Of a stretch of DNA of 64,000 nucleotides, positions 16,392 to 64,000 are shown piece by piece. The position numbers and the translations under genes were made by a program. Under the pieces are notes generated by a model, which ran no database searches, was not told the DNA's origin, and saw nothing but the letters and a program-made list of their open reading frames with translations. Location of the stretch: positions 62,001 to 126,000 of the forward strand of contig JACDGS010000007.1 of the NCBI GenBank assembly GCA_013821455.1. Direction: 5' to 3'. The stretch is from Chthoniobacterales bacterium (lineage in GTDB: Bacteria; Verrucomicrobiota; Verrucomicrobiia; Chthoniobacterales; UBA10450). Positions within the stretch are counted from its first letter, which is position 1. Each line of letters begins with the position of its first letter.

Positions 16392-16392
16392 C

Positions 16393-34655: not shown

Positions 34656-34662
34656 CGTTAGG

Positions 34663-35157: not shown

Positions 35158-35238
35158 AATAATCTCGGTTGAGGTTGCGCGGGGGCGTTCAGTATAGAAA
35201 CGCGCGCGGCTGGGTCAAAGGATTTGCGGACCAACAGT

Positions 35239-35990: not shown

Positions 35991-36001
35991 AGGGGATGTT
36001 G

Positions 36002-37510: not shown

Positions 37511-37712
37511 TTCCCAGAATGCGACCTAACGAGGCGCAACAGAGGCGACATGATGCCGCGTCCGTGAGATGCGTCAAATCAAATCTCGGTCGCGGCGAGG
37601 GAGCAAATTTGTGCTCGCGCCCGACTGAAAAAGCGTCGCGCGGCGCGGTATTCGCCGGTTGCTTCGCGCGCGAAGTAGCCGAAAACTGACGCCGGTAGAA
37701 GAGAACCGAATC

Positions 37713-40208: not shown

Positions 40209-40234
40209 GCGCGAACTCGACTCGGCGGCAGCGA

Positions 40235-40813
40235 CTACTCTTTCGGCAGGCGCGCGTCGACCATCCCGCAGATCGTGTGCAGAAGAAATTTGTGCGCTTC
40301 CTGAATCCTGGCCGTCGTCTCACTCGGCACGAGCAACTCGATTTGGGCTCGACCTTTTGCCGGGCCGCCGCCGCGCCCGAGGAGCGCGACCGTCGTTAGG
40401 CCGCGAGCCTTTCCCTCTTCCAGCGCGCGCAGAATATTCTTCGAATTCCCGCTCGTCGTGATTACGACGAGGACATCGCCGGGTTTCGCCAGCCCCGCGA
40501 CCTGCCGCGCAAAGACTTCGTCGAAGCCGTAGTCATTCCCTATCGCGCTCATCAAGCTCCCGCCTTGGGCCAGGTTTAACGCCGGGTATGGCCGGCGATC
40601 GGTGACGAAACGACAGCCGAACTCCGCCGAGAAATCCGCGCCGTCTGCGGCGCTTCCGCCATTCCCGCAGACGAGCAGTTTCCCGCCCGCGCAAAGACAT
40701 TGCACCATCGCGTCGGCGGCTTGGGCGACCGGTTCCGCTAAATTCTCGAGAGAACGAAATGTCGTGACGGCTTCTTCGATTGCGTCTTTGAGTCGGTTAG
40801 TAGTTTTGCTCAT
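40235..40813 (-). CDS. gmhA: Sedoheptulose-7-phosphate isomerase
   Basis: A 192-residue SIS-domain enzyme that makes D-glycero-D-manno-heptose 7-phosphate, the first step to ADP- or GDP-heptose. Motifs: LLVCGNGGSAADGADFSAEF, VLVVITTSGNSKNILRALE and AHKFLLHTICGMVD. I start at ATG 40813 because the extra upstream reading frame has no recognisable protein. The last exact 9-mer of the region (40394) is inside it. Its substrate path continues in the GHMP kinase at 43728, so it probably belongs functionally to the cluster that follows. Confidence 0.93.
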   Translation of the reverse strand: MSKTTNRLKDAIEEAVTTFRSLENLAEPVAQAADAMVQCLCAGGKLLVCGNGGSAADGADFSAEFGCRFVTDRRPYPALNLAQGGSLMSAIGNDYGFDEVFARQVAGLAKPGDVLVVITTSGNSKNILRALEEGKARGLTTVALLGRGGGPAKGRAQIELLVPSETTARIQEAHKFLLHTICGMVDARLPKE

Positions 40814-41162
40814 CGTCAAAATATATAGGGATGCCAATAGCCTCCGACCGGAAAGGTTGTAAAGATTTTCTTCAATCTTCTTAGTTGGTAGCCGCCTTTT
40901 TCCGTTGGCGAACGCGCTGGAGTTTGGTAAAAGGACGCGCTCATGGGCAAACGATCCTTCTCCTCTTCCTTGTGCCCATCCCCCATTTCCCCGCGCATCA
41001 TTCCCCCAGCTCCGGCCGCCTTCTACTTTCACGGCGCCAGAAGCAAAGTAGCGGTAGCCTAAGCCGGGCTTCGCAGCTTGGCGGGCGCAGATTTCCATAT
41101 ACAAAAATGTTCAAAGTTCATAAACTCCATAACGACCCGAGGATTCTTGCGGGTAAAAATAC
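40814..41162. other. Gap without a gene, boundary of the cluster
   Basis: 349 bp between divergent gmhA and the GT2 gene. I see no RNA fold or regulatory palindrome I can defend; the minus-strand frame upstream of gmhA stays open for about 90 codons but encodes nothing recognisable. From here the 9-mer all but disappears and codon use changes, so this may be an island edge. Confidence 0.4.
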
Positions 41163-42053
41163 ATGAAGGATTCACTTAACAGCTCGAACGGTACGCGGGT
41201 CGCTCCCGCAGTTTCACTTTCAGTTATTTTCCCGGCCTTTAACGAGGAGGCTAACATCCAGCGCACGGTTGAATCGGCCCGCTTGGTGCTCCCGAAGTTG
41301 GCCGACACTTGGGAAATCATTTTGGTGAATGATGGAAGCAAAGACGCCACGACACCGCTTTGCGACGAGTTAGCGGAACGCTATCCCGAAGTGCGCGCGA
41401 TTCACCACGTCGACAACCGCGGCTACGGCGCGGCCCTCAAGAGCGGGATCCTCGCCGCGCGGCATGACTTTATTTTCTTCACGGACTCGGACGGACAGTT
41501 CGACCTCGAGGAACTCAAGCACCTGATCGAATGGGCCGGCCATTACGACATCGTGACCGGTTACCGGGGCAAACGCCAGGATCCGCCGCATCGCCTCATC
41601 AATGCCTTTGGCTGGAAAATGCTCGTCCGGATGGTGCTCGGCGTGAAAGTGCGCGACATCGATTGCGCTTTCAAAGTCTTTCAGCGTTCGGTTTTCGATC
41701 GCGTGCAGATTCGCTCGGTGGGAGCGATGGTGAACACGGAGATTCTGGCGCAGGCGAACGCATTTGGGATGAAAATTCACGAGGTGCGGGTGAGCCATTA
41801 CCCGCGGCAATTTGGCAAGTCTTCGGGCGCGAACCTGCGCGTCATCCTCAAGGCCTTTAAGGAGCTGATGCGGCTCTATCGGCAGCTACGCACTGTGACG
41901 CATGAGCAGGATGGTTTGTTCCGGACCGACACGCAGATCCATCACAAGATCTTTCGACACTATGGAGTGGCCGACGAGGGCGCCGTTTCCCGCCGTTTCG
42001 GCACGGGCTCGGCCAACCAATCGCGTTCAAACCAGGAGTGCTTCGTGGACTAA
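41163..42053 (+). CDS. GT2 glycosyltransferase (dolichyl-phosphate-mannose-synthase-like)
   Basis: A 296-residue cytosolic glycosyltransferase, GT-A fold: SVIFPAFNEEANIQRTVESA, VNDGSKDATT, HVDNRGYGAALKSGILAA and FFTDSDGQFDLEEL for nucleotide-sugar binding, then the DIDCAFKVFQRSVFDRV region. There are no membrane segments, unlike two-domain GtrB/PglA types. It likely moves a sugar onto a polyprenyl phosphate, supplying the large GT-C enzyme at 53989 that uses such donors. First gene of the plus-strand cluster; 206 bp follow before the next gene, with nothing visible in them. Confidence 0.88.
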   Translation: MKDSLNSSNGTRVAPAVSLSVIFPAFNEEANIQRTVESARLVLPKLADTWEIILVNDGSKDATTPLCDELAERYPEVRAIHHVDNRGYGAALKSGILAARHDFIFFTDSDGQFDLEELKHLIEWAGHYDIVTGYRGKRQDPPHRLINAFGWKMLVRMVLGVKVRDIDCAFKVFQRSVFDRVQIRSVGAMVNTEILAQANAFGMKIHEVRVSHYPRQFGKSSGANLRVILKAFKELMRLYRQLRTVTHEQDGLFRTDTQIHHKIFRHYGVADEGAVSRRFGTGSANQSRSNQECFVD

Positions 42054-42259
42054 CGAGGTGCGGCCGCGAGTTTGCGATTGGCCCTAAGTCTGCTAGAGAC
42101 AACGCTCATTTTAGCAGGGCAGTAAGCGCGGTTGCTTGCTCGTCCGACTTCCATTTTCGCGAGGTTGCGAAGGTCGAAGGAGAAAAGGGTATCCAAAGGA
42201 CAATTCGAGAGAGCAGGGCGATTGTTTCTTCCACTCACCGTTAATTTTGTAGTCTTATC

Positions 42260-43720
42260 ATGTTAAAGAAACTCTTCACGCGATCCTCGACAGAGCCCGT
42301 TGCGCGGGACAACCCCGCGTCTCAGACTTCCCCCGCCAAAAAGCGCGTCCTGCTCATCGGCCTAGACTGCGCGGAACCCGATCTCGTGTTTGGTCGGTGG
42401 CTCGATGAGCTCCCGAATATTCGCTCGCTTTATCAGCGTGGGCTACATGGCCCGCTGCGCTCCTGCGATCCGCCCATCACGGTGCCTGCGTGGTCGGTCA
42501 TGATGTCTTCGAAAAGTCCGGGCATGCTTGGTGTCTATGGCTTCCGTAACCGCGCCGATCATTCCTATGATCGTTATGCTATCGCGAACTCACTCGCGAT
42601 TAAGGAAGACCGGCTTTGGGAAATCCTTTCGCGCGCGGGTAAGCGCTCGATTGTTATTGGGGTTCCGGGCACTTATCCGCCGAAGCCGCTTAATGGCATG
42701 ATGGTGACTGACTTTCTTACTCCCGACATCAGTTGTGAGTATACTTATCCGCCGGAACTAAAAGCTGAGATCGAGCAAGTGGTGGGGGAATACATTCTCG
42801 ATGTGCGCGATTTCCGCTCGGGAAATAAGGCGAAGATCCTGGCTGATATCTATGAAATGACGCGCAAACGCTTTCAGCTCGCGCGGCATCTTATCCAAAA
42901 GGAAGACTGGGATTACTTCATGATGGTCGAGATGGGGACCGACCGCATTCACCACGCGCTCTGGGATAACATGGATCCCGCGCACCGTTTCTATGAGGCT
43001 GGGAATGAGTTCGAGAATGCTATCCATGACTACTATGTGGAAGTAGACCGCGAGATAGGAGAGTTACTTAAGCTCGTCGATGAGAATACGGACGTGCTGA
43101 TCGTTTCCGATCACGGCGCGAAGCGGATGGACGGCGGTATCTGTGTCAACGAATGGCTCATGACTAATGGCTATCTTGCCATTCGCGATAAACCGGAAGG
43201 CGCCGTGCCTTTATCGAAAGTAAAGATCGACTGGCCGAAGACTAAAGCCTGGGGCGATGGCGGCTACTACGCGCGGGTCTTTCTGAATGTCGCGGGTCGC
43301 GAACCAGAAGGCACTATTCCGCCCGAAGATTACGAGAAAGTGCGCGACGAACTCATCGCCGGTTTGAAATCGATCCGCGATGAAAACGGCAACGAAATCG
43401 GCACGCAGGTTTACCGGCCGGAAGAATTATACAAAGAGGTGAGGGGAGTCGCGCCCGACCTGATTGTTTACTTCGGCGACCTCTACTGGCGCTCCGTCGG
43501 CACCATCGGTGGTGGAAAGCTGCATACCTTCGAGAACGACACTGGCCCGGATGGCGCTAATCATGCTCAACACGGCATCATCATGCTTCGACCTGCCGGT
43601 GGATTAGCAGAAGGTCGCGTCCTGGACGGCGCGAAAATCGTGGACGTCGCACCGACTATCCTGCAGTTGCTCGGTCTTCCTATTCCTGGAGATATGGAAG
43701 GCAAAGCACTCACCGTCTAA
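42260..43720 (+). CDS. AlkP-superfamily phosphohydrolase/phosphomutase-like enzyme 1 (COG3379-like)
   Basis: A 486-residue soluble enzyme with the alkaline-phosphatase-superfamily core: metal Asp in VLLIGLDCAEPDLV, the PPITVPAWSVMMSSKSPGM segment holding the nucleophile, DRIHHALWDN and LIVSDHGAKRMDGGI. No signal peptide or helix, so it is cytoplasmic. Relatives are called 'predicted phosphohydrolase or phosphomutase' and none is well characterised. A heptose-kinase-like gene follows 7 bp downstream and a paralogue after that, so a phosphorylated sugar is the likely substrate (inference). Starts at ATG 42260. Confidence 0.85.
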   Translation: MLKKLFTRSSTEPVARDNPASQTSPAKKRVLLIGLDCAEPDLVFGRWLDELPNIRSLYQRGLHGPLRSCDPPITVPAWSVMMSSKSPGMLGVYGFRNRADHSYDRYAIANSLAIKEDRLWEILSRAGKRSIVIGVPGTYPPKPLNGMMVTDFLTPDISCEYTYPPELKAEIEQVVGEYILDVRDFRSGNKAKILADIYEMTRKRFQLARHLIQKEDWDYFMMVEMGTDRIHHALWDNMDPAHRFYEAGNEFENAIHDYYVEVDREIGELLKLVDENTDVLIVSDHGAKRMDGGICVNEWLMTNGYLAIRDKPEGAVPLSKVKIDWPKTKAWGDGGYYARVFLNVAGREPEGTIPPEDYEKVRDELIAGLKSIRDENGNEIGTQVYRPEELYKEVRGVAPDLIVYFGDLYWRSVGTIGGGKLHTFENDTGPDGANHAQHGIIMLRPAGGLAEGRVLDGAKIVDVAPTILQLLGLPIPGDMEGKALTV

Positions 43721-43727
43721 GTGCCGC

Positions 43728-44783
43728 ATGAGTAATCCGCCGAAAAACTACCTTAGCCAGATCAAGATGGTGCGCGCACGCACACCGCTCCGGTTGAGTT
43801 TCGGCGGAGGCGGCACCGATGTCTCTCCTTACTCAGATACCCGCGGCGGTTGTGTGCTGAACGCGACTATCTCGCGCTATGTCTATGCGACCTTGGTGCC
43901 TAAGTCGGAACGCTCCATTGGCTTTCGTTCCTTTGACTATGGGACGGTAGTTTACTGGACGCAGGAGGAACACTTCAAGTTCGATGGTCAGATGGACCTT
44001 GTTAAAGGTGTCCTGAAGCGTTTCGAGCTGGATAAGTTTCGCGCCGATGGCTTCGATCTTTTTGTGCACGCCGATGCGCCTCCTGGCTCTGGTCTTGGTA
44101 GTTCCTCTACTTTTACGGTAGCGCTGATAGGTCTCTTTCGAGAGTTACTCGGTTTACCTATTACTTCTGAAGGTATGGCTGGGTTAGCCTACGATATCGA
44201 ACGCAACGAGATAGGTATCAAAGGTGGACGGCAGGACCAGTATGCGGCCGCATATGGTGGTTTTAATTTTATGGAATTCCACGGCGACGAAACTGTCGTG
44301 ACGCCACTAAGACTAAGTGAGTATTTAATTAACGAACTCGAATACAACCTCATCCTCTGTTTCACGGGCAGTCGCGAGTCTCAGCCTATCATCGAGAGCC
44401 AGATGGAAAGCGCGAAGAACGAAGAAGCCGACCCAATGGCAGCGATGGATCAGGTTAAGGCCATCGCCTACGAAATGAAGAAGGCACTCCTCGCGCATGA
44501 CCTCGATCGCTTTGGCGATCTCTTAAACGAAGGTTGGGTGCAAAAGAAAAAAATGGCCAAGGGTATAACTACTCCGAGGATCGATGAGCTCTATTCTGAA
44601 GCGCGCAAGGCGGGCGCGATCGGGGGTAAAATAACCGGTGCCGGCGGTGGCGGGCACCTTCTCCTGTATTGCCCTTTCAACAAACGTCACATTGTGCGCG
44701 AGCGCCTGACCGAGCTTGGTACTTCGGTGACCGATTTTCGCTTCGACCCGATCGGTATGCAGACTTGGCGGGTTTATAAGTAA
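43728..44783 (+). CDS. GHMP kinase, heptose-7-phosphate-kinase-like (HddA type)
   Basis: A 351-residue kinase. APLRLSFGGGGTDV-like start (RTPLRLSFGGGGTDVSPYSD), ATP loop PPGSGLGSSSTFTVALIG and motif 3 GKITGAGGGGHLLLYC are all present. This branch phosphorylates D-glycero-D-manno-heptose 7-phosphate at C1 (HddA, GDP-heptose route), though a fucose or other sugar kinase of the same shape is possible. With gmhA at 40235 it gives the first two steps of a heptose pathway. Its TAA overlaps the ATG of the next gene (TAATG), so they are tightly coupled. Confidence 0.85.
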   Translation: MSNPPKNYLSQIKMVRARTPLRLSFGGGGTDVSPYSDTRGGCVLNATISRYVYATLVPKSERSIGFRSFDYGTVVYWTQEEHFKFDGQMDLVKGVLKRFELDKFRADGFDLFVHADAPPGSGLGSSSTFTVALIGLFRELLGLPITSEGMAGLAYDIERNEIGIKGGRQDQYAAAYGGFNFMEFHGDETVVTPLRLSEYLINELEYNLILCFTGSRESQPIIESQMESAKNEEADPMAAMDQVKAIAYEMKKALLAHDLDRFGDLLNEGWVQKKKMAKGITTPRIDELYSEARKAGAIGGKITGAGGGGHLLLYCPFNKRHIVRERLTELGTSVTDFRFDPIGMQTWRVYK

Positions 44784-46498
44784 TGAAGAAACCCAAAGTA
44801 GTAGTCATAGGTCTTGACGCGGCGACTTGGACTCTTATCCAGCCGTGGATGGCGGAAGGCAGCATGCCTAACCTGGCTAGACTTATGAAAGGCGGGGCGA
44901 AGGGAACCCTGCAATCAGTCCTTCCGCCGATCACGCCGCCCGCCTGGACTTCTTTCATGACCGGCAAGCAACCGGGCAAACACGGCATCTTTAATTTCGT
45001 CGAAAGTGAGCCTGATGGTTACGCGATGAACTACGCGAACGCTACTTCGCGCCGCTCGCCGACGGTTTGGAAATTGTTAAACGACGCCGGCTTTACCGTC
45101 GGCACGATGAACATTCCGTTCACTTATCCGCCGGAGAAGCTCAATGGCTTTCAGATCTCTGGAATGGATACGCCCTCCGAGACAAGTCCTTTCATTCACC
45201 CACGTGAGTTAAAGGATGAGTTAGTCAAACACTTGGGTCACGACCTTCAGCTTGACCTGCGTTTTCTCGGCTCCATGACTAACGATGTGCGCCGTTCTCA
45301 GGTGCTCGATGAAATGCGCGAGATGGACGAGCAATGGTCCAAAGTCGCACTCTATCTCTTAGAGAAGCATCCGCAGGACGTGATGATGTTCGTCTTCATG
45401 TCGATCGATACCGTGCAGCATTACTTTTGGCAGTACATGGATAAGAGTCATTTCCTTTATGACCCACCTTTAGCTGCTAAGTTCGGCGATGCGATCCGCA
45501 AGGTCTATGAACGCCTTGACGTAGTAGTTGGCCAGATCGTCGATCGTCTGCCGGCTGAGACTGCGGTCTTCGTCGTTTCCGATCACGGTGGCGGGCCAGT
45601 GGTGGATAGGACCATTTATCTAAACCGCTATCTCGCACAGTTAGGTCTTCTTCATTACAAAGAGAACGCTACTTCCGGCTTGCGCACGCTAGGTCAAAAA
45701 GTTATGCGCGCGGGCTTCTCGGCGATCCGCAGCACACTGACTTCGCGGCAGAAGGTCAAGCTCGCGGCCCTCTTCCCCGAGATGCGGCGTAAGAGTGAGT
45801 TAGCATTCTCATCCTTTACCGCCATCGATTGGAGCCGCACGAAAGCTTACTGCAGCGAAGTCCTGGCCGCGCCGCCGAGTATCTATATCAACCTTAAAGG
45901 TGTGAAACCGGAAGGAATCGTCGATCCGAAAGATTACGATTCACTGGTCAATGAGATCATTGCGAAAATCTATGCGTTGAAGGATCCGCGCGACGGCCAG
46001 CCTGTGATCAAAAAAGTCTGGCGCCGCGAAGAGATTTTCCACGGCCCCTTTGCCGAGGAGACGGCAGATCTCATTCTCGATTGGTGGAACGAGAACAGTT
46101 TGTTCTCGACTTCACCAAGTTTCCCCGAGGATACGGACCAGCCTGCGCTCGTCATCCGCGAGCATAAGGCTTCGGAAACTTCCGAGTGGGGCGGAACTCA
46201 TCGACTTTTTGGTATCCTTGTTGCTCGCTCGCCGGTCATCAACCCAAACATGGAAGTGCAAAGCCCGCGTCTCATCGATATTTCGCCGACCATCCTTCAC
46301 TTGTTAGGCGTGCCCGTGCCGGAAGACATGGATGGCCGCGTCCTGGAGAGTATCTTCAAGCCCGAGTTTCTGCGGGCTCATCCGCTTCGTTCTGGCGCCG
46401 CCTCCGGCACGTCGGAAATGGAACAAAATAGCGGCTATACCGACGAAGAATCGGCCAAGGTCGAAGAGCGCCTCCAGGCCCTCGGTTATCTCGAATAA
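44783..46498 (+). CDS. AlkP-superfamily phosphohydrolase/phosphomutase-like enzyme 2 (COG3379-like)
   Basis: A 571-residue paralogue of the enzyme at 42260, again with no signal peptide. VVVIGLDAATWTLIQPWM carries the first metal Asp, PPITPPAWTSFMTGKQPGKHGIFNF the nucleophile region, FMSIDTVQHYFWQYM and FVVSDHGGGPVVDR the other metal ligands, and SPTILHLLGVPVPEDMDGR near the end. It is about 85 residues longer, mostly in an insertion between about 280 and 380. The two could act on successive intermediates or the two anomers of one sugar phosphate. It starts inside the kinase stop codon. Confidence 0.85.
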   Translation: MKKPKVVVIGLDAATWTLIQPWMAEGSMPNLARLMKGGAKGTLQSVLPPITPPAWTSFMTGKQPGKHGIFNFVESEPDGYAMNYANATSRRSPTVWKLLNDAGFTVGTMNIPFTYPPEKLNGFQISGMDTPSETSPFIHPRELKDELVKHLGHDLQLDLRFLGSMTNDVRRSQVLDEMREMDEQWSKVALYLLEKHPQDVMMFVFMSIDTVQHYFWQYMDKSHFLYDPPLAAKFGDAIRKVYERLDVVVGQIVDRLPAETAVFVVSDHGGGPVVDRTIYLNRYLAQLGLLHYKENATSGLRTLGQKVMRAGFSAIRSTLTSRQKVKLAALFPEMRRKSELAFSSFTAIDWSRTKAYCSEVLAAPPSIYINLKGVKPEGIVDPKDYDSLVNEIIAKIYALKDPRDGQPVIKKVWRREEIFHGPFAEETADLILDWWNENSLFSTSPSFPEDTDQPALVIREHKASETSEWGGTHRLFGILVARSPVINPNMEVQSPRLIDISPTILHLLGVPVPEDMDGRVLESIFKPEFLRAHPLRSGAASGTSEMEQNSGYTDEESAKVEERLQALGYLE

Positions 46499-46518
46499 GA
46501 CTAACCCAAATCTTTCCT

Positions 46519-47136
46519 ATGTTTGAACTCATTCGTGACGATATCCGTCGTAAGACGTTAGGCTTCGGCATTCGTCCGGAAGATCAGACTTTCTTCCGCA
46601 AGCGCGTCACTCCTTTTCTCGAATTCGGCACCTTCGGGGTGATGGTTTATCGGTTCGGTTCCTGGGCTTATACGGTGAAGATCCCGGTGATCCGCCAACT
46701 CCTGATCCTGACTTATCTTTTCGTGAATGTCTTCTGCATGGCGGTCACGGGGATTCATATCGCCCGCGAAACTAAGATCGGTCCCGGACTCGTTATTCAT
46801 AACTTCTCCGGCATCCTCGTCCTGGCTGATGAAATAGGTCATAGCTGCACGCTCAACCAGCAAGTCAGTATCATGAATGCCCGGGGAGTCGGCCGCGCGA
46901 CGATTGGCAATAACTGCTACTTCGGCGCGGGTTGCAAAGTGGTCGGCAAGGTAAAGATCGGCGATAACGTCGTAGTGAGTGCGAATTCACTCGTGGTCAT
47001 GGATGTGCCGAGTAACTCCACTGTTCTCGGCGTTCCGGCGCGAATCATCTCGCGCGAAGCGAACAGTCCTTATCTCAAGAATCCTATTATTCCGATGCCG
47101 GTGGAAACACCCGCGCCAGCTCCTACTGCTTCGTGA
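46519..47136 (+). CDS. Hexapeptide-repeat acyltransferase (serine-acetyltransferase-like)
   Basis: A 205-residue left-handed beta-helix enzyme. The repeat region begins around IHIARETKIGPGLVIHNFSGIL and continues VSIMNARGVGRATIGNNCYFGAGCKVVGKVKIGDNVVVSANSLV; it resembles CysE and sugar O-acetyltransferases. In a glycan cluster, O-acetylation of a sugar is more likely than cysteine synthesis, but the sequence alone does not settle it. The N-terminal 60 residues include a hydrophobic stretch (IRQLLILTYLFVNVF) that may hold it at the membrane. The GT4 gene starts at a GTG that overlaps its stop. Confidence 0.82.
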   Translation: MFELIRDDIRRKTLGFGIRPEDQTFFRKRVTPFLEFGTFGVMVYRFGSWAYTVKIPVIRQLLILTYLFVNVFCMAVTGIHIARETKIGPGLVIHNFSGILVLADEIGHSCTLNQQVSIMNARGVGRATIGNNCYFGAGCKVVGKVKIGDNVVVSANSLVVMDVPSNSTVLGVPARIISREANSPYLKNPIIPMPVETPAPAPTAS

Positions 47137-48416
47137 GTAACTCTTCTCCTAACAAGCGCAGTGGCAATGGCGGTTATTCCATCGCGATGGTCGCGGCTTG
47201 TCCTTTCCCGGCTAACCATGGCTCGGCGGCCAGCATTCGTGAGATGTCTGACACACTCACGGATATGGGTCATAACGTGACCATCGTGACTTATCCTATC
47301 GGCCAGGAAAGCATCCGTGTCCGTCGCGCGAAAGTGCGCCGCACCGGTCCTTTCCAACCCGAGACCAATGCCAAAGTAGGTCCTTCGGCGGATAAGTTCG
47401 TTCTCGATTTCAAGTTACTCAAGTTACTCTGCCGAGTTATCCGCGAAGAACAGGTTGATATCATTCACGCGCATAACTATGAGGGCGCGCTTGTCGGTAT
47501 CATGGCTAAGTGGATCACGCGCCGGCCTCTGCTGTATAATGCAGTTAATCTGATGTCGGACGAGCTGGCCGGTTATAAGTTCATTCGCCCGGCATTTATT
47601 GCGAATTGGCTGGCGGCCGCACTCGATTGGTTCATTCCTATTTTCCCGGATCGTATCACTGCGGTTTCGCCAGATTTGAAGGACTGGTTCGTCCAACACG
47701 GGGTGCGCGAAAGCAAAGTGGACATGGTTCCCGCCGGGATCGAGCCGGACTTATTCGATAATCCGCAGCCGGAAAAATTCCGCGACCAGCTACCCATCAA
47801 AGGCCGCCCGGTCGTAATGTATACCGGCGTCCTGAATGCCTTCCAGCGCGTCGATTATTTGCTGCGCGCTTTTGCGGTGACTTTGCGCGAAGTGCCGGAC
47901 GCGCTGCTACTCATCGTTAGCCCGCTCGTTTCGGCAGCGAACGAACGCGAGCACCAACAACTCGCCACCGAACTCGGCATTACCGACTCGATCATTTGGA
48001 TCGCGCCGCATGAACTGGCCGATCTTCCGAGTTATCTCGCGCTCGCGGACGTGACCGTGGTCCCGCGGCCGGAATGTCCCGGCCATCCGATAAAGCTTCT
48101 TAACTACATGCTCGCCGGCAAACCGGCCGTGACTTTCGCCGGCTCGGCCAAGGGAGTCCGCCACTTGCACGACGCCTACATCGTTCCTAATCACGACTTC
48201 GAGGGCCTTGGCCGCGGCATCAGCGCGCTGCTCAAAGACAAAGCCCTCGCGGCCGAGATCGGCGCGAACGGCCGGGCGACCGTGCTCAACGATTTTGATT
48301 GGCGCAATATCTGCCGGAAAATCGAGCACATTTACGACGAACTCCTGGGAGCTTCCGCGAAGGTCGCCTCCGCCCCGCGCGAAACCGCAACAACCACGGC
48401 GGTGGCGGAACGTTAG
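47133..48416 (+). CDS. GT4-type glycosyltransferase
   Basis: A 427-residue GT-B enzyme. The N-terminal domain starts SIAMVAACPFPANHGSAASIREM and has DIIHAHNYEGALVG; the C-terminal nucleotide-sugar domain has VVMYTGVLNAFQRVDYLLRAF, EREHQQLATELGI, and PRPECPGHPIKLLNYMLAGKP (the E-x7-E-like region). Retaining family 4 enzymes add hexoses or heptoses to lipid-linked glycans. Start GTG 47133 overlaps the previous stop by four bases. A gap of 134 bp follows, with only a 27-codon reading frame (48458-48541) I would not call a gene. Confidence 0.88.
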   Translation: MSNSSPNKRSGNGGYSIAMVAACPFPANHGSAASIREMSDTLTDMGHNVTIVTYPIGQESIRVRRAKVRRTGPFQPETNAKVGPSADKFVLDFKLLKLLCRVIREEQVDIIHAHNYEGALVGIMAKWITRRPLLYNAVNLMSDELAGYKFIRPAFIANWLAAALDWFIPIFPDRITAVSPDLKDWFVQHGVRESKVDMVPAGIEPDLFDNPQPEKFRDQLPIKGRPVVMYTGVLNAFQRVDYLLRAFAVTLREVPDALLLIVSPLVSAANEREHQQLATELGITDSIIWIAPHELADLPSYLALADVTVVPRPECPGHPIKLLNYMLAGKPAVTFAGSAKGVRHLHDAYIVPNHDFEGLGRGISALLKDKALAAEIGANGRATVLNDFDWRNICRKIEHIYDELLGASAKVASAPRETATTTAVAER

Positions 48417-48550
48417 GAATCCCTTGCCTTACCTCTCTCGACTCTGTTATACGGTTTATGACTTCAACAGTGATTGCTCTCGACAACTCATGGCCCCAAG
48501 CCTATGAAATCGCTTTCTTCGGTGGTAAAACAATCGGTTAGCTAAGTATT

Positions 48551-49744
48551 ATGGACACTAAAACTGAATATCCGGAATCGTCAGCGCGCCGCGGCCTGCA
48601 CCCCGACGGACGCCCCTCGACTGGCATGAAGCCTGTACATTGGATCATCTTTCTGGTGGTCTGTGTTGTTCTCGGCATCCTCGTCTTCGAGACAGTCATC
48701 CACGTCATCGGCACCAACACGAGTACGGCGCGGCACCTGAATTTGTCCGCGCCCGTCGAGACCGTTGTGGCAGAGCGCCAGTCTCTGGACGAAGTGATCG
48801 GGGGCAGTGGTGCCGTCGAGCAATCGACCACGGTCCAACTTACCAGCCAGGTCACCGCCGAGGTTCTCGATGTTAAGGTCAAGGTGGGCGACATCGTGAA
48901 GAAGGGCGACCTGCTCATGAGCTTCGATGCCAGACTGATCGAGGCGCAGATGACTGCGAACAAAGAGTACGTCGATGTGAGTAACATCAAGATTAAAGAC
49001 CAGCAAAAGCAGGTCGATCGCTATACGGCGCTGGAAAAGAAATCGATGGGCACTCCCTTAGAGTTGGAAAAGAGCGAGATCGCTTTGGCCGACGCGCGGC
49101 AGGATTTAGCCAAGGCCCAACTCACTTTGCGCCAGGCCGAGATCGATCTCGAGCATGTAAAGGTCACCGCACCGCTCGATGGCATTGTGCTCGAGCGTTT
49201 GGTTAACCCCGGCGAATCGACTCATCGCGATCAGATTATTCTTAAGCTCGGATCGCTTAATACCATTCTCGTGACGCCAAAAATCACGGAAGAAAAAATG
49301 CACGCCGTCCAGCTCGGTATGCCGGCGGAAGTCGCTTTCCCTGCTTTTTCCGGCGAAGTCTTCGCGGGCAAAATCGTGAAGATCGATCCTAACATCGACC
49401 CGGTGACGCGGACTTTCACCGCGTATGTGGAGGTGAAGAACGACGACTTCCGTCTGAAGCCCGGACTGTCCGGCTTCGCGCGCATTCGTCGGAGCTTGAA
49501 AGATGTGCTGGCTGTGCCCAGTATCGCGATTATGAATCCTTCCGGCGAACAGGCTACGGTCTTTGTCGTGGATGGCACCGGGCACGCGAACCAGCGCAAG
49601 GTTAAGACGGGCTCAGTCGTCAATGCCATGACCGAGATCACCAGCGGCCTGCAGGCCGGCGAAAATGTCGTCACGGTGGGTCAGTTGTATCTGAAAGAAA
49701 ATGACAAAGTCCATACTACCTCACGCTCGAAGACTCAGAAGTAG
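48551..49744 (+). CDS. HlyD/RND-type periplasmic adaptor protein
   Basis: A 397-residue adaptor with a single N-terminal membrane helix (about 31-52), a lipoyl half-motif GSGAVEQSTTVQLTSQVTAEVLDVKVKVGDIVKKGD, a coiled-coil hairpin (about 135-200, ending LEHVKVTAPLDGIVLERLVNPGE) and beta-barrel domains. It should bridge an inner-membrane exporter to the TolC-type channel encoded next. The exporter itself is not visible. The downstream tolC-like gene begins 44 bp before this stop, so both are made together. Confidence 0.9.
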   Translation: MDTKTEYPESSARRGLHPDGRPSTGMKPVHWIIFLVVCVVLGILVFETVIHVIGTNTSTARHLNLSAPVETVVAERQSLDEVIGGSGAVEQSTTVQLTSQVTAEVLDVKVKVGDIVKKGDLLMSFDARLIEAQMTANKEYVDVSNIKIKDQQKQVDRYTALEKKSMGTPLELEKSEIALADARQDLAKAQLTLRQAEIDLEHVKVTAPLDGIVLERLVNPGESTHRDQIILKLGSLNTILVTPKITEEKMHAVQLGMPAEVAFPAFSGEVFAGKIVKIDPNIDPVTRTFTAYVEVKNDDFRLKPGLSGFARIRRSLKDVLAVPSIAIMNPSGEQATVFVVDGTGHANQRKVKTGSVVNAMTEITSGLQAGENVVTVGQLYLKENDKVHTTSRSKTQK

Positions 49745-53985: not shown

Positions 53986-53988
53986 GAT

Positions 53989-56900: not shown

Positions 56901-57180
56901 CCAGTTGCTCGGTGAGCCCCGCTTTGTCGATAAGTTTGGCGGCTTACCCGTAGTGCGAAATCTGACTGAGTTAAAAGAAGTCACTCATCGCGCGCGTCGG
57001 ACTTGGCTGATCTTTGCGCCCTATGCTTCCTTCGAGAAGCTAAGTGCTCCTAATGTCCTCGAATACCTGGACTCCAATGCCCGGATCGTCTTCGAGACTT
57101 ATCGCGCGAAGGTGCTCCTGATCGAAGGAGACGCGCAGGTCAAACCCGCGAAGGGCGAGCAAAGGACCGCTGCTAAATAG
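53989..57180 (+). CDS. Giant GT-C glycosyltransferase (PMT/ArnT-like) with two carbohydrate-binding-like N-terminal domains
   Basis: 1,063 residues. An N-terminal membrane anchor (about 18-36) is followed by two beta-sandwich segments (about 45-195 and 210-385) that resemble galactose-binding folds (e.g. DFGNAQWIEPVEKGPTAYFRTKVFL), then about 12 transmembrane helices from residue 420 on. The GT-C catalytic loop Asp/Glu pair is in ISFDHDEMGLVTKSKGIY. Such enzymes use polyprenyl-phosphate sugars to glycosylate lipids or proteins at the periplasmic face. Residues 280-310 are a Lys/Gly/Ala-rich linker. The gene converges with a sulfotransferase and their stops overlap by 8 bp. Confidence 0.82.
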   Translation: MNENLTPATAGRSYAVRWSLGLVIFCGLLLGYFIQQTYFTPKHRQYQLDFGNAQWIEPVEKGPTAYFRTKVFLNAEPEQAWMEVAAVDNFKAIVNSHTAGVEDSVKTRVAGIYDIKKRLKSGTNVIAVSVNRTSFPGPAQIMVRAYIKQHGGKVTELVSDAQWRVTTEQGIVRGSEDWTSAAVPDELWPLAVRSPVNDRPYDLSWVDLNPMVLQSPVTGSWLLSGDAASSATFSKTIQADHSRQETWLQIASSGQLDLLVNGHLLTSTIDYGSSSARLPHLATEAKETSPKAEGRQRAGGQSAGKPAKKGGSTFEKATLESYDISYWIKSGANSITATVRADHRPASVLVSGFLVNSDGSLQKFDSNSSWHVIDSMAPPDTAQPAVEFGEVGSAPWGYLAQELGKPVDRAGFLTYAGNLLVIVLTAAVVLALWLLFSGLMAGSRQELLRHTMVRDALFHAPIAVGLLFLLLPNYDIRFPDEWSFRTAFILAAVIALLGIRLFHLFPVEELAGRARARVTATFSDVRTAAPYILLILIMSLGLALRFHNIAAISFDHDEMGLVTKSKGIYSLGIPYTTYAGDVRWITTYEAVPYPLALSGLFGYSELTMRLPSCLMGTLCIGLMGLLGVRLFNWRTGLIAAFIYACLPLDIRWAQNAFYPQQCQFMSLLTILLFYEAIRVRPFHGKFFIAASISFCITYLSWEGSAFLLPSLFVALMIYRWGEWWWLKELNLYFGLFFLGTVVVAQYCSRTLAGEPYLQIGSGLSNLTGPSLFFLTSAYQPMFYINKLWLSENHVFFTLLAVLGLPVCWGNRSYRYLFPMLVSLWFCHTNFIAALAPRYCYYYQPLLVLSGVAAGVMIYDRMIALAQRESDSAIAWVCAHAAGIAAILLLFLQSNEWMFHVYKLSSTGDTPGLMTRMGMYRYDYRDADRYVKEHLQPGDVVFPGIPHVYAYYAKQPGDYFLDTLLGSKVPYNQLLGEPRFVDKFGGLPVVRNLTELKEVTHRARRTWLIFAPYASFEKLSAPNVLEYLDSNARIVFETYRAKVLLIEGDAQVKPAKGEQRTAAK

Positions 57181-58057: not shown

Positions 58058-58061
58058 CCGG

Positions 58062-59159
58062 TTAGTTGCGATATTTTCCCTCGGCCGCCAGCTTCTGCTT
58101 GTAGCCTTCGTAGCCTGCCTGTTTCGCATCGTCCCAGGCTTTTGCTACTGCGGCTGAGGTCGCAGAACTCATGCCATCGCCGTGCCACAATTCCCAGTAC
58201 TCACCCTGCGCGTGGACAACGTTAAGAGCCGCCATCTCGACCGAACCCATGCGATCATTAGGATGAGACAGGCCGGCGAGGCTTTGGAAGCCATGGTGGA
58301 TGCGATCGCGGTACCTCAGCACTAACTCGTAAGTCTTATTACCGATGTCTTCCCGGCGGCCGGTGAGCTGACAGTTCTGAATAGTGAAGCGGTCCGGATA
58401 CTTGCTTGCGCCGTAGTCCACTATCTGCTCGGTAAAGGATATCGGAAGATCGAGCACCTTCGCCAGGTGGAGCGACACTTCTTGTTTAGGAAAGGCAGTG
58501 GCCCACTCATCGGTGTAGCGCTTATAAACTTCGAGTAACTTCGTGTCGTAATGGCCTAGCGCAGCCCAACGCGAAATGTCGCCGCGCGTTTTGGGAAGAT
58601 GCATTTCCGCACTAACAAAGTTAGCGCAAGTAAGAACGACGCTGACACAGAGCGGATCGGAGGCGTAGCGCTGTCCTAGCTCTTGAATGATGGAGGAAAA
58701 GTCCTTCTCGTAAATGAGATCCCAGGGCACGGGAATTCGAATCGCCTGGCCGACGTCCGCGCGATGAGGATTTGTCACCTGGGTAGGAAAAGCTTGGGCG
58801 CCCTGATTGTAAACAAAGTCGGGAGTGTTAGCTCCCGGTTTAAGGCAAAGCTGATACTTCATGTTCAGCTTGCGCAGGACATCCACCGTCTTATCCAGCG
58901 CGGTGAAGTCGGGCTTGCCTTGCTCTTTCTCGATCGTCTTCCAGGCGAAGTTAAGGCAGACACCACTTAGGTGTGAGTTAGACCGGACATGGCTGGAAAA
59001 CTCTTCGAAGCTGGACGGATCTTCGGGCAGTTTCTGCATCACCCAGATGCCGGTTCGTATCGGTGGTTTTCGCTCGCTCGCAGCCTGTGCGAAACCGGTT
59101 AGGCCGACAACTAAGAGCAACAGAAGAGAGCTAAGTCGATAAGCTCGTGAATGACTCAT
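58062..59159 (-). CDS. Secreted TIM-barrel protein resembling glycoside hydrolases
   Basis: A 365-residue protein with a signal peptide (RLSSLLLLLVVGLTGFAQAA). The mature part has LSGVCLNFAWKTIEKEQGKPDFTALDKTVDVLRKLNMKYQLCLKPG, as in GH42/GH-A clan barrels, and NFVSAEMHLPKT with a Glu at the place where a catalytic acid often sits. I could not assign a GH family. It lies between two sulfotransferase genes with a 4-bp gap and an ATGA overlap, so all three are one unit; it may trim or hold the sulfated glycan. Confidence 0.7.
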   Translation of the reverse strand: MSHSRAYRLSSLLLLLVVGLTGFAQAASERKPPIRTGIWVMQKLPEDPSSFEEFSSHVRSNSHLSGVCLNFAWKTIEKEQGKPDFTALDKTVDVLRKLNMKYQLCLKPGANTPDFVYNQGAQAFPTQVTNPHRADVGQAIRIPVPWDLIYEKDFSSIIQELGQRYASDPLCVSVVLTCANFVSAEMHLPKTRGDISRWAALGHYDTKLLEVYKRYTDEWATAFPKQEVSLHLAKVLDLPISFTEQIVDYGASKYPDRFTIQNCQLTGRREDIGNKTYELVLRYRDRIHHGFQSLAGLSHPNDRMGSVEMAALNVVHAQGEYWELWHGDGMSSATSAAVAKAWDDAKQAGYEGYKQKLAAEGKYRN

Positions 59160-59986
59160 AACACTGAAGTTACCTTACTCACAAGAAAGCGCCCGGTCCC
59201 AACGGTTGTTTGTAAAAAGTTCTCAAGCTTGCCTGGCTTCGGCGTTGCGGCCAGCTTCTGCATGGCTTGTTGCACAGCCTCGGCGTTTTTCTGCAGATCC
59301 TCATCCAGCCGCTTCTTTCCTAACTCATAGAGAGCCATGTCGTAGCGATTGTGCTCACGGATCATTTCGATCATCGCAGGATCGACCGCGGAACGGCTCT
59401 TGGTGACTTTGCGATTTTCGTAGTGCGGAATTTTCCAGCCAAAGGAAGATGCGATGAGAAACAGACTTTCCTCAAACCGCTCGCTAATTCCTACAACACG
59501 AAAACTCGTCGCCATGTTTTGCTGTGCGGTCTCGAAGACGCGCTCGTCGCAGGGTCCGACGTAGGGGACGCCGGCAAGCATCTTAGTCTGCAAGTTTTGG
59601 CGTTGTGCGGTGAACTGGAGAAAGTCTTCGACTCCGATTCCTTTGGCTTTCAATTTCCAATGCAGCGGATGGAGCGGGCGGCGTAAAATGAAGAAGTAAG
59701 ATGAAAGGAAGCGCTTCACTGGATCGCGCAACATCGTGATATAAGTGCCGCCTTGAGGAAGGCATTCATGCACGCCGTAGATCAAATGTCCGCGCACCAC
59801 GCGCAGCGAGCGGCGCCGTTTCTCCGAAAGCGTTTTTAGGCGCTGCACTGTCGCGCGGATTTGGTAGGGATCGACCGTGTAAATCGTGCGCGGATCGTAT
59901 TGCCATTCGATGATGCGGTTGAGCGTCGTGCCCGCAGTCTTCGGAATATGCAGGAAGATCAGGGCCTCACCGTTTGTCTGATCCAT
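59156..59986 (-). CDS. Sulfotransferase 2 (paralogue)
   Basis: A 276-residue paralogue of the enzyme at 57173. LIFLHIPKTAGTTLNRIIEW binds the PAPS 5'-phosphate and YITMLRDPVKRFLSSYFFI the 3'-phosphate; the C-terminal 40 residues form a helix (ETAQQ... style in NAEAVQQAMQKLAA). Two sulfotransferases in a cluster usually place sulfates on two positions or two sugars. It begins at ATG 59986 and its TGA overlaps the start of the glycosidase-like gene. Confidence 0.88.
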   Translation of the reverse strand: MDQTNGEALIFLHIPKTAGTTLNRIIEWQYDPRTIYTVDPYQIRATVQRLKTLSEKRRRSLRVVRGHLIYGVHECLPQGGTYITMLRDPVKRFLSSYFFILRRPLHPLHWKLKAKGIGVEDFLQFTAQRQNLQTKMLAGVPYVGPCDERVFETAQQNMATSFRVVGISERFEESLFLIASSFGWKIPHYENRKVTKSRSAVDPAMIEMIREHNRYDMALYELGKKRLDEDLQKNAEAVQQAMQKLAATPKPGKLENFLQTTVGTGRFLVSKVTSVL

Positions 59987-60062
59987 GGCGATTTGTCTTC
60001 GAGTGAAAGTGAGTGTGCAGATGACTTACCCGAGCCATCCGCACACTTAGACTTAGCAGTTC

Positions 60063-61409
60063 CTAGCGACCGAAAGCGGACGCAGGCGCCGGCGCTTCCG
60101 CAAAAGCGGGAGCTTCCATAGCCTGAGAGCGCGGCGCGGCGGCAGCGGCGGCGGCGTATTCGGCGCGTCGCTTTATCATCAGCCGGCGCATGGCGGCGCG
60201 TGACTTGTTATTCTCGACGATCTCTCCGTAAAGCCGGCCCGCGAACAGGTCGGTGATATCGTCCTTGGCGTGGCCGCTGGCCATGCGCGTAAAGACAAGC
60301 GGATACTCCCAGAAGCAATCGATCAAATCCTGCACCGCATCCTGACCCTGAGAGTTGACCTCTTCGTAGTGCGCGAAGGGATTCCCATTTGTGCCACCTT
60401 CTTCGCCGAGGAGCTTACCGATCGCTTCCGCGGCAAACTCTCCTTCGCGCATGGAAAGAAAGACGCCAAAGGAAAAGATAGGATCGGTAAACTGATGCGC
60501 GTCGCCGACACAGAGATAGCCTTGGCCGGTATAGTTATCGGCCTTGTAGCTGTAACTCGTCGTCGTGCGCACTTCTTCGAGGAAGTTAGTGTTAGTAATA
60601 CGCCGAGTCAGGTCGGGATTAAGACTTAGGATTTCTTTACGGAGATACTCAGTCTTGTCGAGACCCGTCTTCTTGAAGTAACTGGCCGGCGCAACGACAC
60701 CGATACTCATCTCCTCGTCGTTCAACGGGATCATCCAGGCCCAATGCCCCTTCTCTTTGTAGAAAATGAGAGTGTTGCCCGGGACTTTTGACGGCGTGTC
60801 GCCGTTGTCGCGAATCACTCCGGAGAGTTGCGAGTAAACGGCGATTTGGTTGGCGTAGCCGCCTTTCACCTTGGGTGCCGTCAACCCGCGGTTGGCCAGG
60901 AAAGTCGCCTGTCCGGAACAATCCGCGAACACCTCGGAACGGAGATCTTCCAGCGCGCCGCCGGGGGTGCGGATCTGCAAGCCGACGACGCGATCGCCAT
61001 CACGTAAAGGCGAGACTGCTTCGCATTCCATATATTCCGCCCCGCGTTGGCGCGCGGCATTGAGCAGAATGTCATCGTAAGTGCTGCGCACGACAGACCA
61101 CGTCGCGGTCGGGATGAGTTCGTGTGTCTCCGGGCAGCGCCGTTTCACCTCTACCCAAAATGGAACGCCGTTGGGATTGAAAACGTTGACGCCATGCTTG
61201 ACCGGGAAATTCTTGGACAGCATTTCTTCTTCGAGACCCAGCGCGCGGACCGCGCCGCGGCATTCGCCGCTGAGTGATTCACCGATGTGATAGCGAGGAA
61301 ATGCCTGCCGTTCGACGATGAGCGGCTGGATGCCGGTTCGCAAAAGGTGAAGAGCTGTCGAGGACCCCGCAGGGCCGCCTCCGAGGATAATAGCTGGTCG
61401 CTTTTTCAT
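60063..61409 (-). CDS. Flavin-dependent halogenase-like oxidoreductase
   Basis: A 448-residue FAD enzyme. GGGPAGSSTALHLLRTG binds FAD, GESLSGECRGAVRALGLE follows, and Lys71 in FPVKHGVNVF is at the place of the catalytic Lys of halogenases. The halogenase signature WxWxIP is exact as WAWMIP (residues 223-228). The later GYLCVGDAHQFTDPIFSFGVFLSMREG is the FAD C-terminal motif. The relatives are phenol/pyrrole halogenases acting on carrier-bound substrates rather than free tryptophan. Ends in an Ala/Pro-rich tail. ATG 61409 is chosen for the FAD motif; 40 codons upstream are open but without sense. Divergent to the adenylation enzyme. Confidence 0.85.
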   Translation of the reverse strand: MKKRPAIILGGGPAGSSTALHLLRTGIQPLIVERQAFPRYHIGESLSGECRGAVRALGLEEEMLSKNFPVKHGVNVFNPNGVPFWVEVKRRCPETHELIPTATWSVVRSTYDDILLNAARQRGAEYMECEAVSPLRDGDRVVGLQIRTPGGALEDLRSEVFADCSGQATFLANRGLTAPKVKGGYANQIAVYSQLSGVIRDNGDTPSKVPGNTLIFYKEKGHWAWMIPLNDEEMSIGVVAPASYFKKTGLDKTEYLRKEILSLNPDLTRRITNTNFLEEVRTTTSYSYKADNYTGQGYLCVGDAHQFTDPIFSFGVFLSMREGEFAAEAIGKLLGEEGGTNGNPFAHYEEVNSQGQDAVQDLIDCFWEYPLVFTRMASGHAKDDITDLFAGRLYGEIVENNKSRAAMRRLMIKRRAEYAAAAAAAPRSQAMEAPAFAEAPAPASAFGR

Positions 61410-61743
61410 TGTTTTTGTTTGGCAAACTGCGGGGGAAAAGAAGACGAGGTTTGGAAGATGGTTTTCCCCGTCGAGCCGTGGTGTGTCCGGGTTGTTTTGG
61501 GATATTTTGGCGAGATTGTCAAGCGACAACCCGCAATGAGAGGCGGATAATCGGCTGCGTCAGCGGGGCGAGAGAATCCTGCCAGGCAAATTGACCGGGC
61601 TGTTGTGAAATGTATCATGAGCGCCGTGAACAGAATAAGAGAGCAGCCGGCGCGCCATTGGCTCGTCATTTGCTGGTAGGTATACGCCGCGGCGCATCGA
61701 ACGGATGTCGCGCGGGAATTGCTTTTCCGAACTGTTAATCCTC
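61410..61743. other. Divergent intergenic region, probable promoters
   Basis: 334 bp between the halogenase and the adenylation gene. No gene or repeat is visible; short frames do not resemble proteins. It must contain the promoters for both divergent genes; no clear -35/-10 can be singled out. Confidence 0.4.
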
Positions 61744-63342
61744 ATGTCCTATTTATTGCACCAATTACTCAGGGCAAGTGCTGCGGCCCATCCCGAATCA
61801 GACGCGGTTCGGCTCGTGGACGACGCTATCACTTACCGCGACTTAGAAACTCAGAGTAACCAGTTGGCACATGCACTTATCGCGGCCGGCGTCGCGCCCG
61901 GCGATCGGGTGGGGATTTATTTAAAGAAGTCACCGCGCGCGATCGTCAGTATTTTTGGGATTCTCAAGACGGGCGCGTGCTATGTGCCGGTGGATGCGAA
62001 TGCGCCCGGCGCGCGTCTGGTGGAGATCGCGCGGCAATGTGCTTTTCGCGCGCTGGTCACGAGCGCCTCGCTCTACGGCAAAATCGAAGACGGTCTGAAG
62101 GAAGAGTGTAAGGACGCCGCTTTGTTTTTTGTCGATGAGTTACCAAAGGATGCTCACTCTTCCGGATATCAGTCCTTCTCGGAAGTGTTACTGCAATGTC
62201 CGAAGGATTCTCCCGTGGTCGATGTCATCGGTCATGACCTCGCTTATATCCTATTTACTTCCGGTTCTACGGGAACGCCTAAGGGAGTTATGCTATCCCA
62301 TCTTAACGCTCTGACTTTTGTTAACTGGGCGGCGGAGACGTTTGGTATCACATCCAGCGATCGCCTTTCACAGCACGCGCCGTTTAATTTCGACCTTTCA
62401 GTCTTCGATATCTTTGTCGCGGTAAAAGCGGGCGCGGCTATCTGTCTCGTCCCGGAAGGGCTGGCTGTGTTTCCGCTCCAGCTCTCAGCCTTTATCCAAA
62501 AGCAGAAGATAACTGTTTGGTATTCTGTTCCTATGGTGTTGATGCTGCTGCTGGGTCGCGGCAAACTGGATGAGGGCGACTTCAGTTCGCTTCGTATTAT
62601 CCTCTTCGCAGGCGAGGTTTTTCCCACGAAACACCTGCGCGCGCTGATGGAAAAACTGACTCATCCTCGCTACGCCAACCTTTACGGGCCGACAGAGACT
62701 AATGTGTGCGCTTATTACGAAGTGGCGCCTTTATCTCCTGAAGCTACAGCACCTATTCCGATCGGAAAAGCTTGCGCTAACACTGAGCTCATCGCGATCG
62801 ATGAGGCAGGTGAGAGAGTTAGTGGGCCGGGCCGGGAAGGATTACTCTACGCGCGAGGTTCTACAGTTATGCAGGGGTACTATGGCCGGCCTGAAAATAC
62901 CAGGGCCGCCTTTTCGCCTAATCCCTTCGCGGTCGGAAGGGAAGAGAACCTCTACTGCACCGGCGACTGGGTCACTCTGGATGAGGACGGCAATTACCTC
63001 TTCGTTGGCCGCAAGGATCACATGATTAAGACACGCGGTTATCGCGTAGAGTTAGGTGAGATTGAAGCAATCATGGTAACTCATCCGGCGGTGGATGAAG
63101 CCGTCGCTTTGGCTATTCCGGATGAGGCGGTAGGCAATACCATTCAGGCGGTAGTTACACTCGCCGGAGATAGCTCGCTCGAGGTTGCGGAGTTAAAGCG
63201 ACACTGCGCGGAGAAGCTCCCCGCTTATATGGTGCCAGAGAAAATAGACTTCGCTGCGACATTACCGCGGACAGACAACGGAAAGATCGATCGCCGCCGT
63301 CTGCAGAGCGAGCGAGTGCCGTCGGGTACGTCCGCGGACTGA
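61744..63342 (+). CDS. Stand-alone NRPS-type adenylation enzyme
   Basis: A 532-residue acyl/aminoacyl-AMP ligase. Core motifs: A3 ILFTSGSTGTPKGVMLSH, A5 NLYGPTETNVCAYY, A7 LYCTGDWV, A8 GRKDHMIKTRGYRVELGEIE and A10 LPRTDNGKIDRR with the catalytic Lys. The A4 region FNFDLSVFDIF has the substrate-binding Asp that favours an alpha-amino group; similar sequences activate small amino acids (Ala, Pro). No carrier-protein or condensation domain follows. The nearby halogenase suggests a PltF/PltA-like step, in which an amino acid is loaded on a carrier and halogenated; no carrier is encoded in the window. ATG 61744 starts it. Confidence 0.88.
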   Translation: MSYLLHQLLRASAAAHPESDAVRLVDDAITYRDLETQSNQLAHALIAAGVAPGDRVGIYLKKSPRAIVSIFGILKTGACYVPVDANAPGARLVEIARQCAFRALVTSASLYGKIEDGLKEECKDAALFFVDELPKDAHSSGYQSFSEVLLQCPKDSPVVDVIGHDLAYILFTSGSTGTPKGVMLSHLNALTFVNWAAETFGITSSDRLSQHAPFNFDLSVFDIFVAVKAGAAICLVPEGLAVFPLQLSAFIQKQKITVWYSVPMVLMLLLGRGKLDEGDFSSLRIILFAGEVFPTKHLRALMEKLTHPRYANLYGPTETNVCAYYEVAPLSPEATAPIPIGKACANTELIAIDEAGERVSGPGREGLLYARGSTVMQGYYGRPENTRAAFSPNPFAVGREENLYCTGDWVTLDEDGNYLFVGRKDHMIKTRGYRVELGEIEAIMVTHPAVDEAVALAIPDEAVGNTIQAVVTLAGDSSLEVAELKRHCAEKLPAYMVPEKIDFAATLPRTDNGKIDRRRLQSERVPSGTSAD

Positions 63343-63450
63343 CAACGGCAGGATCAAAGCGCCGCTTTCTTGCTGAGCGAACGAGTGTAGCCGGGCCGCC
63401 TGAAAACATCATCACGATCAGGCTGAGCTATGGTTTCGTGGGTAGCTTAT

Positions 63451-63479
63451 AAACTCGACTGGTTAAACCAGTCGAGTTT
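63451..63479. terminator. Perfect 14-bp stem hairpin after the adenylation gene
   Basis: AAACTCGACTGGTT, one base, then its exact complement. It lies 109 bp after the adenylation stop and before the convergent gene's stop at 63528, so it can serve as a bidirectional terminator. No T-run follows directly. Confidence 0.65.
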
Positions 63480-63527
63480 CGGAAGCGCTTCCTGCCAAAC
63501 CCAAGTTTCTCGATCCGGTCCGATTAG

Positions 63528-64000
63528 TCACGGAACCACCGTCAGGGCAAGATCATTGCCATCGCCGCCTTCGTAGCTGGCTTGGAAATTATTTCCACTC
63601 ATCGTTAGGATGGCGCCATCGGGCAGGTTACTGAAGGTTCCGTTGATGGGTGTAGAGCTGGTGTTACTGAGGACAGTGAAGACAGTTCCAGCCTGTAGCG
63701 TTCCTTGCACTTTTCCCTGGAAGGTAAAGGTCGCGCCGGTGTTGATGGTAACTCCTTCGGCGATAACTTCGTCAGCGCTCGTTTTTTTCAACTTGGCTTT
63801 CAAGGTGCAGATATAGGTGGCATCAGCTTTCAGGGTGAGCTTGCCCTGGATGGTCAGTGCGGATTGCACACCGGTCCCATTTGCTGGGGCGAGGAAAGCT
63901 CCTGTGCCATTGCCCTGGCCGATCGTCGCCGCGCCAGCGATTGTCCCGTTACCCGCCAGGGTGCCGCCATTCACCTGCACGGCCTCCGTCCCGGTAGCTG
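63528..64000 (-). CDS. Autotransporter-type/beta-strand repeat secreted protein, C-terminal part (5' end outside window)
   Basis: Reading leftward from base 64000, about 157 codons stay open. ATGTEAVQVNGGTLAGNGTI...GATFTFQGKVQG...AILTMSGNNFQASYEGGDGNDLALTVVP is the repeat pattern of the autotransporter-associated beta-strand proteins (parallel beta-helix with GNGT and NDL ends), common in Verrucomicrobiota. There is no outer-membrane barrel at the end, so the protein either carries a sorting signal elsewhere or is released. The start lies beyond the window. One near-terminal 9-mer core (63602) lies inside. Confidence 0.75.
   Translation of the reverse strand, partial: ATGTEAVQVNGGTLAGNGTIAGAATIGQGNGTGAFLAPANGTGVQSALTIQGKLTLKADATYICTLKAKLKKTSADEVIAEGVTINTGATFTFQGKVQGTLQAGTVFTVLSNTSSTPINGTFSNLPDGAILTMSGNNFQASYEGGDGNDLALTVVP

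Follow-up and report, generated by a model that had tools for sequence, protein, structure and literature searches.

The 64,000-nucleotide stretch of DNA analysed here (hereafter the window; contig C67:62001-126000 of assembly G000, 4.30 Mb in 117 contigs) contains a gene cluster that is nearly devoid of a 9-nucleotide word repeated throughout the genome. We consider it more likely than not that the cluster represents an old, mosaic locus for a surface glycan which never acquired the word; the word itself resembles a DNA uptake sequence (DUS) and is characteristic of the family. The basis of this reading was obtained directly: word statistics, synteny, a word desert shared with relatives, conflicting gene trees and a lack of near-miss words.

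Among the 9-mers of the window, the word, TCGTTAGGC/GCCTAACGA, ranks first in frequency. G000 contains 4605 copies, balanced between the strands (2306 and 2299), or about 1.07/kb on average over the whole assembly. The reversed control occurs 62 times (33 and 29). Every one of the family's 37 genomes carries the word, in 60 to 4605 copies, and genomes from other families of the order have 0 to 30. Its core is sharp, with 335 exact copies in one sample and at most 39 of any single-base variant. The density is 2.02/kb between genes and 0.90/kb within genes, and words in coding DNA occupy just the four reading frames in which they introduce no stop codon. No preference for inverted, terminator-type pairing was observed among the 57 word pairs separated by less than 60 bp (22 inverted, 35 direct). 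The 7-mer CGTTAGG is strongly avoided in the order's other families, for example in G051 (18 copies versus 948 for the reversed control). A literature search, with subscription journals and preprints outside its scope, yielded no report of the word. Within the same scope, Verrucomicrobia and DNA uptake sequences were named together solely in one review on methods for detecting gene transfer. The identity of the word, its range across the family and its conserved placement appear to be unreported so far.

Within the window, 70 exact copies are found in 1-40401, the last one at 40393, and one (49773) in 40402-63601. The corresponding features are:

1..40401, no strand assigned, word-rich stretch with the 70 copies of TCGTTAGGC/GCCTAACGA; includes smc, purL-type, mutL and aconitase genes
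40235..41104, minus strand, SIS-domain protein, phosphoheptose isomerase (GmhA)-like (best NCBIfam matches under curated cut-offs); contains the last word before the desert
41163..42053, plus strand, family 2 glycosyltransferase (GT2_41163), first gene of the desert; tree agrees with the core
42260..43720, plus strand, type I phosphodiesterase-family protein (PDE1)
43728..44783, plus strand, GHMP kinase, closest to D-glycero-D-manno-heptose 7-phosphate kinase (under curated cut-off)
44783..46498, plus strand, second type I phosphodiesterase-family protein (PDE2); tree conflict
46519..47136, plus strand, hexapeptide-repeat transferase
47133..48416, plus strand, family 4 type glycosyltransferase
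48551..49744, plus strand, HlyD/RND-type membrane-fusion protein
49701..51173, plus strand, TolC-like outer membrane protein
49773..49781, plus strand, sole exact 9-mer of the desert, inside the TolC-like outer membrane protein gene
51170..52657, plus strand, Wzx-like flippase; vertical placement rejected by its tree
52654..53985, plus strand, TPR-repeat protein, tentatively assigned on a weak basis
53989..57180, plus strand, PMT-type membrane glycosyltransferase, 1063 aa
57173..58129, minus strand, sulfotransferase
58062..59159, minus strand, glycoside hydrolase 42-like protein
59156..59986, minus strand, second sulfotransferase
60063..61529, minus strand, FAD-dependent oxidoreductase/halogenase-like protein
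61705..63342, plus strand, AMP-binding adenylation/acyl-CoA ligase-type enzyme

Judging from these protein families, the cluster product is likely a surface or secreted glycan.

The sequence-only reading had reported a single core copy in this region. This holds for the exact 9-mer, but a second copy of the 8-mer TCGTTAGG, at 55696, had been overlooked: the 8-mer occurs 81 times in the first 40.4 kb and twice in 40402-63601 (49773 and 55696). The same reading expected about 46 copies. This figure fits the density of the 8-mer and overstates the expectation for the word, because the local density (1.73/kb in the word-rich part of the window) exceeds the genome mean. About 25 words are expected in the desert at the genome mean and 13.5 in the cluster genes from GC3-matched genes, with one seen. 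The proposed left edge, in the gap between gmhA and the GT2 gene, is confirmed and is common to the relatives described below. The right edge, placed at a terminator at 63451, is unsupported, since site 63602 bears only the 8-mer and no exact 9-mer follows 49773 as far as the contig end (window coordinate 65512).

The stretches sampled amount to about 19% of G000 and 27% of G004, with crude gene calls made by script. The desert is the poorest 23-kb window in the 817 kb sampled from G000 (850 words, 1.04/kb). Five other word-free stretches of 11-16.5 kb were found in this sample, some of them clipped by contig or sample ends. The idea that the cluster contains decayed words was rejected, as variants differing by one base show no clear excess over chance: 9 are found in the cluster versus 5.4 expected (sd 2.4), compared with 30 versus 8.9 in the word-rich part. 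In the clusters of the relatives such variants are also near chance, the highest value being that of G005 (7 versus 4.0 expected, sd 1.3).

The composition of the cluster is atypical, as would be expected of a recently acquired genomic island, with a GC content of about 0.55 and shifted codons. The codon shift noticed earlier persists when words are masked; per 1000 codons, the word-rich part and the cluster have 3.1 and 10.8 TTA, 6.8 and 17.0 ACT, 12.4 and 19.4 CTT, and 5.7 and 9.7 AGT, respectively. Word density tracks GC in G000 (rho 0.70, 5-kb windows) and also increases with gene GC3. Composition therefore accounts for part of the desert, because low-GC3 genes in general carry fewer words. 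These correlations would also suit another view, in which weakly expressed, lower-GC3 genes lose words and the desert is a mere run of such genes. We regard this view as rather unlikely, because one word is seen in the cluster genes although genes of matching GC3 would give 13.5, and because the PDE1 and GHMP genes of G004 and G005 are wordless despite a host-like GC3 of 0.73-0.76.

The cluster was located in other genomes with the 1063-aa PMT-type protein as query. G001, G003 and G004 belong to the same genus (g1) as G000, and G005 to a sister genus (g2); these relatives are metagenome assemblies. According to tblastn searches with the window proteins, the cluster adjoins the same aconitase, glycosyltransferase, histidine-kinase and gmhA-like genes in all four. 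Words end near the gmhA/GT2 junction in each of them, G004 having one further copy at 20386, right after GT2. Past the junction, 0 words are found in 20.5 kb of G001, 2 in 27.5 kb of G003, 2 in 59.6 kb of G004 and 0 in 20.6 kb of G005. Together this makes 4 words in 128 kb versus about 73 expected from the genomes' own densities and rounded sizes, although the four deserts are not mutually independent because the loci share ancestry. The OEP gene of the clusters in G001, G003, G004 and G005 contains no word. In G002, whose genome is 84% complete, the GHMP gene is present and a PMT match is absent. In G004, the cluster has about 31 kb of extra, nearly word-free genes (G004:C2:37904-69351), which separate the GH42-like gene from the second sulfotransferase gene.

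The sequence-only reading had explained the desert by proposing that the whole cluster came recently from another host and arrived without the word; it would then have had too little time to gain any. A recent island would be missing from the same site in close relatives; here the cluster is syntenic, beside the same neighbours and with the same left edge, in three congeners and a genome of the sister genus, and word-poor in all of them. Recent transfer as a block is contradicted by this synteny, and a gap that the congeners and the sister genus have in common gives no date for an arrival. The different codon use and lower GC of the cluster speak for a recent arrival in G000. So does the content of other G000 deserts, in which restriction-modification, phage-baseplate-like and orphan genes are found, as well as the desert C40:140001-160000, which matches the congeners in short repeats only. 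Against it, besides the shared neighbours, the left-hand genes of the cluster have core-like trees. Single genes may still have been replaced. Overall, recent arrival of the whole cluster is very improbable. That reading had also named, as evidence that would tell against it, many wordless core genes, or vertical trees together with a common codon signature. The first of these is observed: of the 41 genes that have a counterpart in a reduced, endosymbiont-sized genome of the order, 15 are wordless.

As for these other deserts, G000:C45:33958-50468 and C15:3929-17372 contain restriction-modification genes (Eco57I-type methylase and GmrSD/HNH; C5 methylase fused with a Vsr-like domain, and helicase). 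G000:C38:1-16225 contains genes of phage-baseplate or contractile-injection type (Phage_GPD, Baseplate_J). A repeat of about 50 bases at L075:16065-16114 (G000:C40:156065-156114) has dozens of near-identical copies across G000 and G003, and a few occur in G001 and G004. The same C40 locus has another repeat, a palindromic one, at L075:13335-13371.

Gene trees argue for a mosaic history of the old locus. The core tree, built from five neighbouring genes, separates {G000, G001, G003} from {G004, G005} with support of 100/100. The trees of GT2_41163 and of PDE1 plus GHMP do not conflict with it. Fourteen grouping tests were considered on seven genes; in two the group was already a clade and no AU test was needed, and likewise for ST1 (five genomes). 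The AU test rejects the core grouping for Wzx (p 1e-6 and 0.0008), PDE2 (0.0002, three-genome group) and PMT (0.002 and 0.002). These rejections survive correction for 14 tests, and that of OEP (0.004, three-genome group) narrowly fails it; the p-values are somewhat flattering because the genes were picked after the trees had been seen. For HlyD, TPR and ST1, the core grouping is not rejected by AU tests. The conflict of the Wzx, PDE2 and PMT trees with the core indicates that pieces of the locus were exchanged within the family. GHMP proteins are 88-93% identical within g1 and g2 and 88% identical in G032, a member of another genus with MutL identities of 61-78%. Elsewhere in the family, GHMP is at most 44% identical or absent. 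This patchy distribution, together with the 88% identity in G032, makes it quite possible that part of the locus was acquired long ago, and the sequences suggest that exchange came later.

A sharper form of the favoured explanation is that alleles of the locus are repeatedly swapped among family members that are often word-poor, so that the locus is reset before words accumulate. The tree conflicts of Wzx, PDE2 and PMT are in line with such recurrent replacement, as is the low identity at four-fold sites, which lies under the prediction from protein identity and GC3 in 15 of 15 cluster orthologs (mean residual -0.089). The middle of the cluster is also present in word-poor genera, for instance in G009. 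Conversely, GT2_41163, PDE1 and GHMP are core-like and yet wordless in five genomes, a limited objection since these genes are short and few words are expected in them. We see recurrent replacement as a serious candidate that falls somewhat short of even chances. Because it sharpens the explanation of an old mosaic locus, our confidences in the two overlap.

In the rest of the genome, words tend to stay in place. Over 74 syntenic G000-G004 orthologs, G004 has the identical sequence at 35 of the 91 word sites of G000, versus 12% for other 9-mers. The 23 genes outside the cluster that are wordless in G000 are wordless in G004 too. Genes of this kind make up 31% of the length and contain none of the 47 words (p 2.6e-8, assuming independent placement, an assumption violated by shared ancestry). 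Word density is 1.21/kb in the 41 genes that also occur in a 0.9-Mb genome from the order and 0.91 elsewhere outside the cluster. Core and all non-core genes differ in density (Mann-Whitney p 0.009), but within bins of GC3 the effect is not clear. We considered, and dropped, the idea that synonymous identity is generally linked to word density: the partial rho of 0.40 over the 74 orthologs depended on the cluster genes, and the link is weak without them. Outside the cluster, rho is 0.20 (p 0.13) and partial rho 0.32 (p 0.014, one of several tests).

In the mechanism that we propose for the old mosaic locus, the word, a DUS-like 9-mer repeated across the family, kept at fixed sites in many genes and missing from others, would promote the uptake of DNA from kin. 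The locus after 40402, which we infer to make a surface polysaccharide, keeps its chromosomal position in at least two genera and would have stayed outside the word process. It would evolve as family members swap single genes or blocks of it. Words might fail to accumulate in it since its alleles turn over or are seldom kept after transformation. More tentatively, and with rather less than even confidence, this verrucomicrobial family may own a DNA uptake word, with the glycan locus outside word-guided exchange over at least two genera. If so, core genes would be exchanged among kin and the surface coat would evolve by a separate route.

The word could also be thought to derive from integron recombination sites, as GTTAGGC fits the attC core GTTRRRY. 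G038, a member of another family, has 19 word copies that are mostly integron attC ends in the same orientation, followed at 95-117 nt by GTTAGGC and forming strong folds, and integrases above cut-off are found in both G038 and G000. In G000, the word is not paired with GTTRRRY at attC spacing, attC-like partners following 7.9% of words versus 10.9% of random places. Moreover, the integrase is also present in word-poor genomes and in other families and does not track word number. An integron origin is therefore extremely unlikely, and the seven letters common to word and attC may be due to chance. The copies of G038 were also considered as word-bearing DNA moved between families, which was rejected as they are mostly attC ends. 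G038 loci L183-L196 are integron-like cassette arrays with attC sites starting with GCCTAACGA, the integrase being at G038:C10:677-1612, and L184 bears an apparent IS110-type transposase. In G000, L198 (G000:C81:2902-3858) encodes an integron integrase above the curated cut-off, with one attC-like element nearby.

Mosaic polysaccharide loci of the capsule or O-antigen type combine glycosyltransferases, a flippase and modifying enzymes at a fixed chromosomal place, with exchanged genes and variable content. The cluster, whose product is predicted, resembles them in gene set, fixed place, exchange and variable content, and additionally lacks a genome-wide word. Uptake words established by experiment are, to our knowledge, confined to two families, both proteobacterial. 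Another one, in a widespread soil phylum, would allow asking how such words arise. By analogy with those families, the word of G000 perhaps functions in uptake; it behaves like a DNA uptake sequence and we do not class it as one. ComEC and DprA are present in G000, ComEC being equally common in members of the order without the word. Like the DUS of Neisseriaceae (PMC3630211) and the uptake signal sequences of Pasteurellaceae, the word is short and non-palindromic, occurs in thousands of copies on both strands at about 1 per kb, is restricted to one family and may be less frequent in accessory DNA. For Neisseriaceae, an accumulation of DUS in the core genome has been described (PMC3630211). Unlike these words, that of G000 belongs to another phylum, has another sequence, shows no excess of inverted pairs and is known from genomes alone; in addition, the poorest locus sampled in G000 is old and syntenic. 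Large gaps between DUS serve as a proxy for genomic islands in Neisseriaceae (PMC7371117). As in such DUS-poor islands, a big word gap here coincides with a distinct block that has a gene set of its own. However, whereas the gap is an island sign there, here it is old and common to congeners and a sister genus. A word gap alone is thus no proof of recent transfer, and the DUS-gap proxy would mislead on the age of this locus. The sugar-coat cluster of this soil bacterium appears rather as a long-term resident whose lack of words is common across species.
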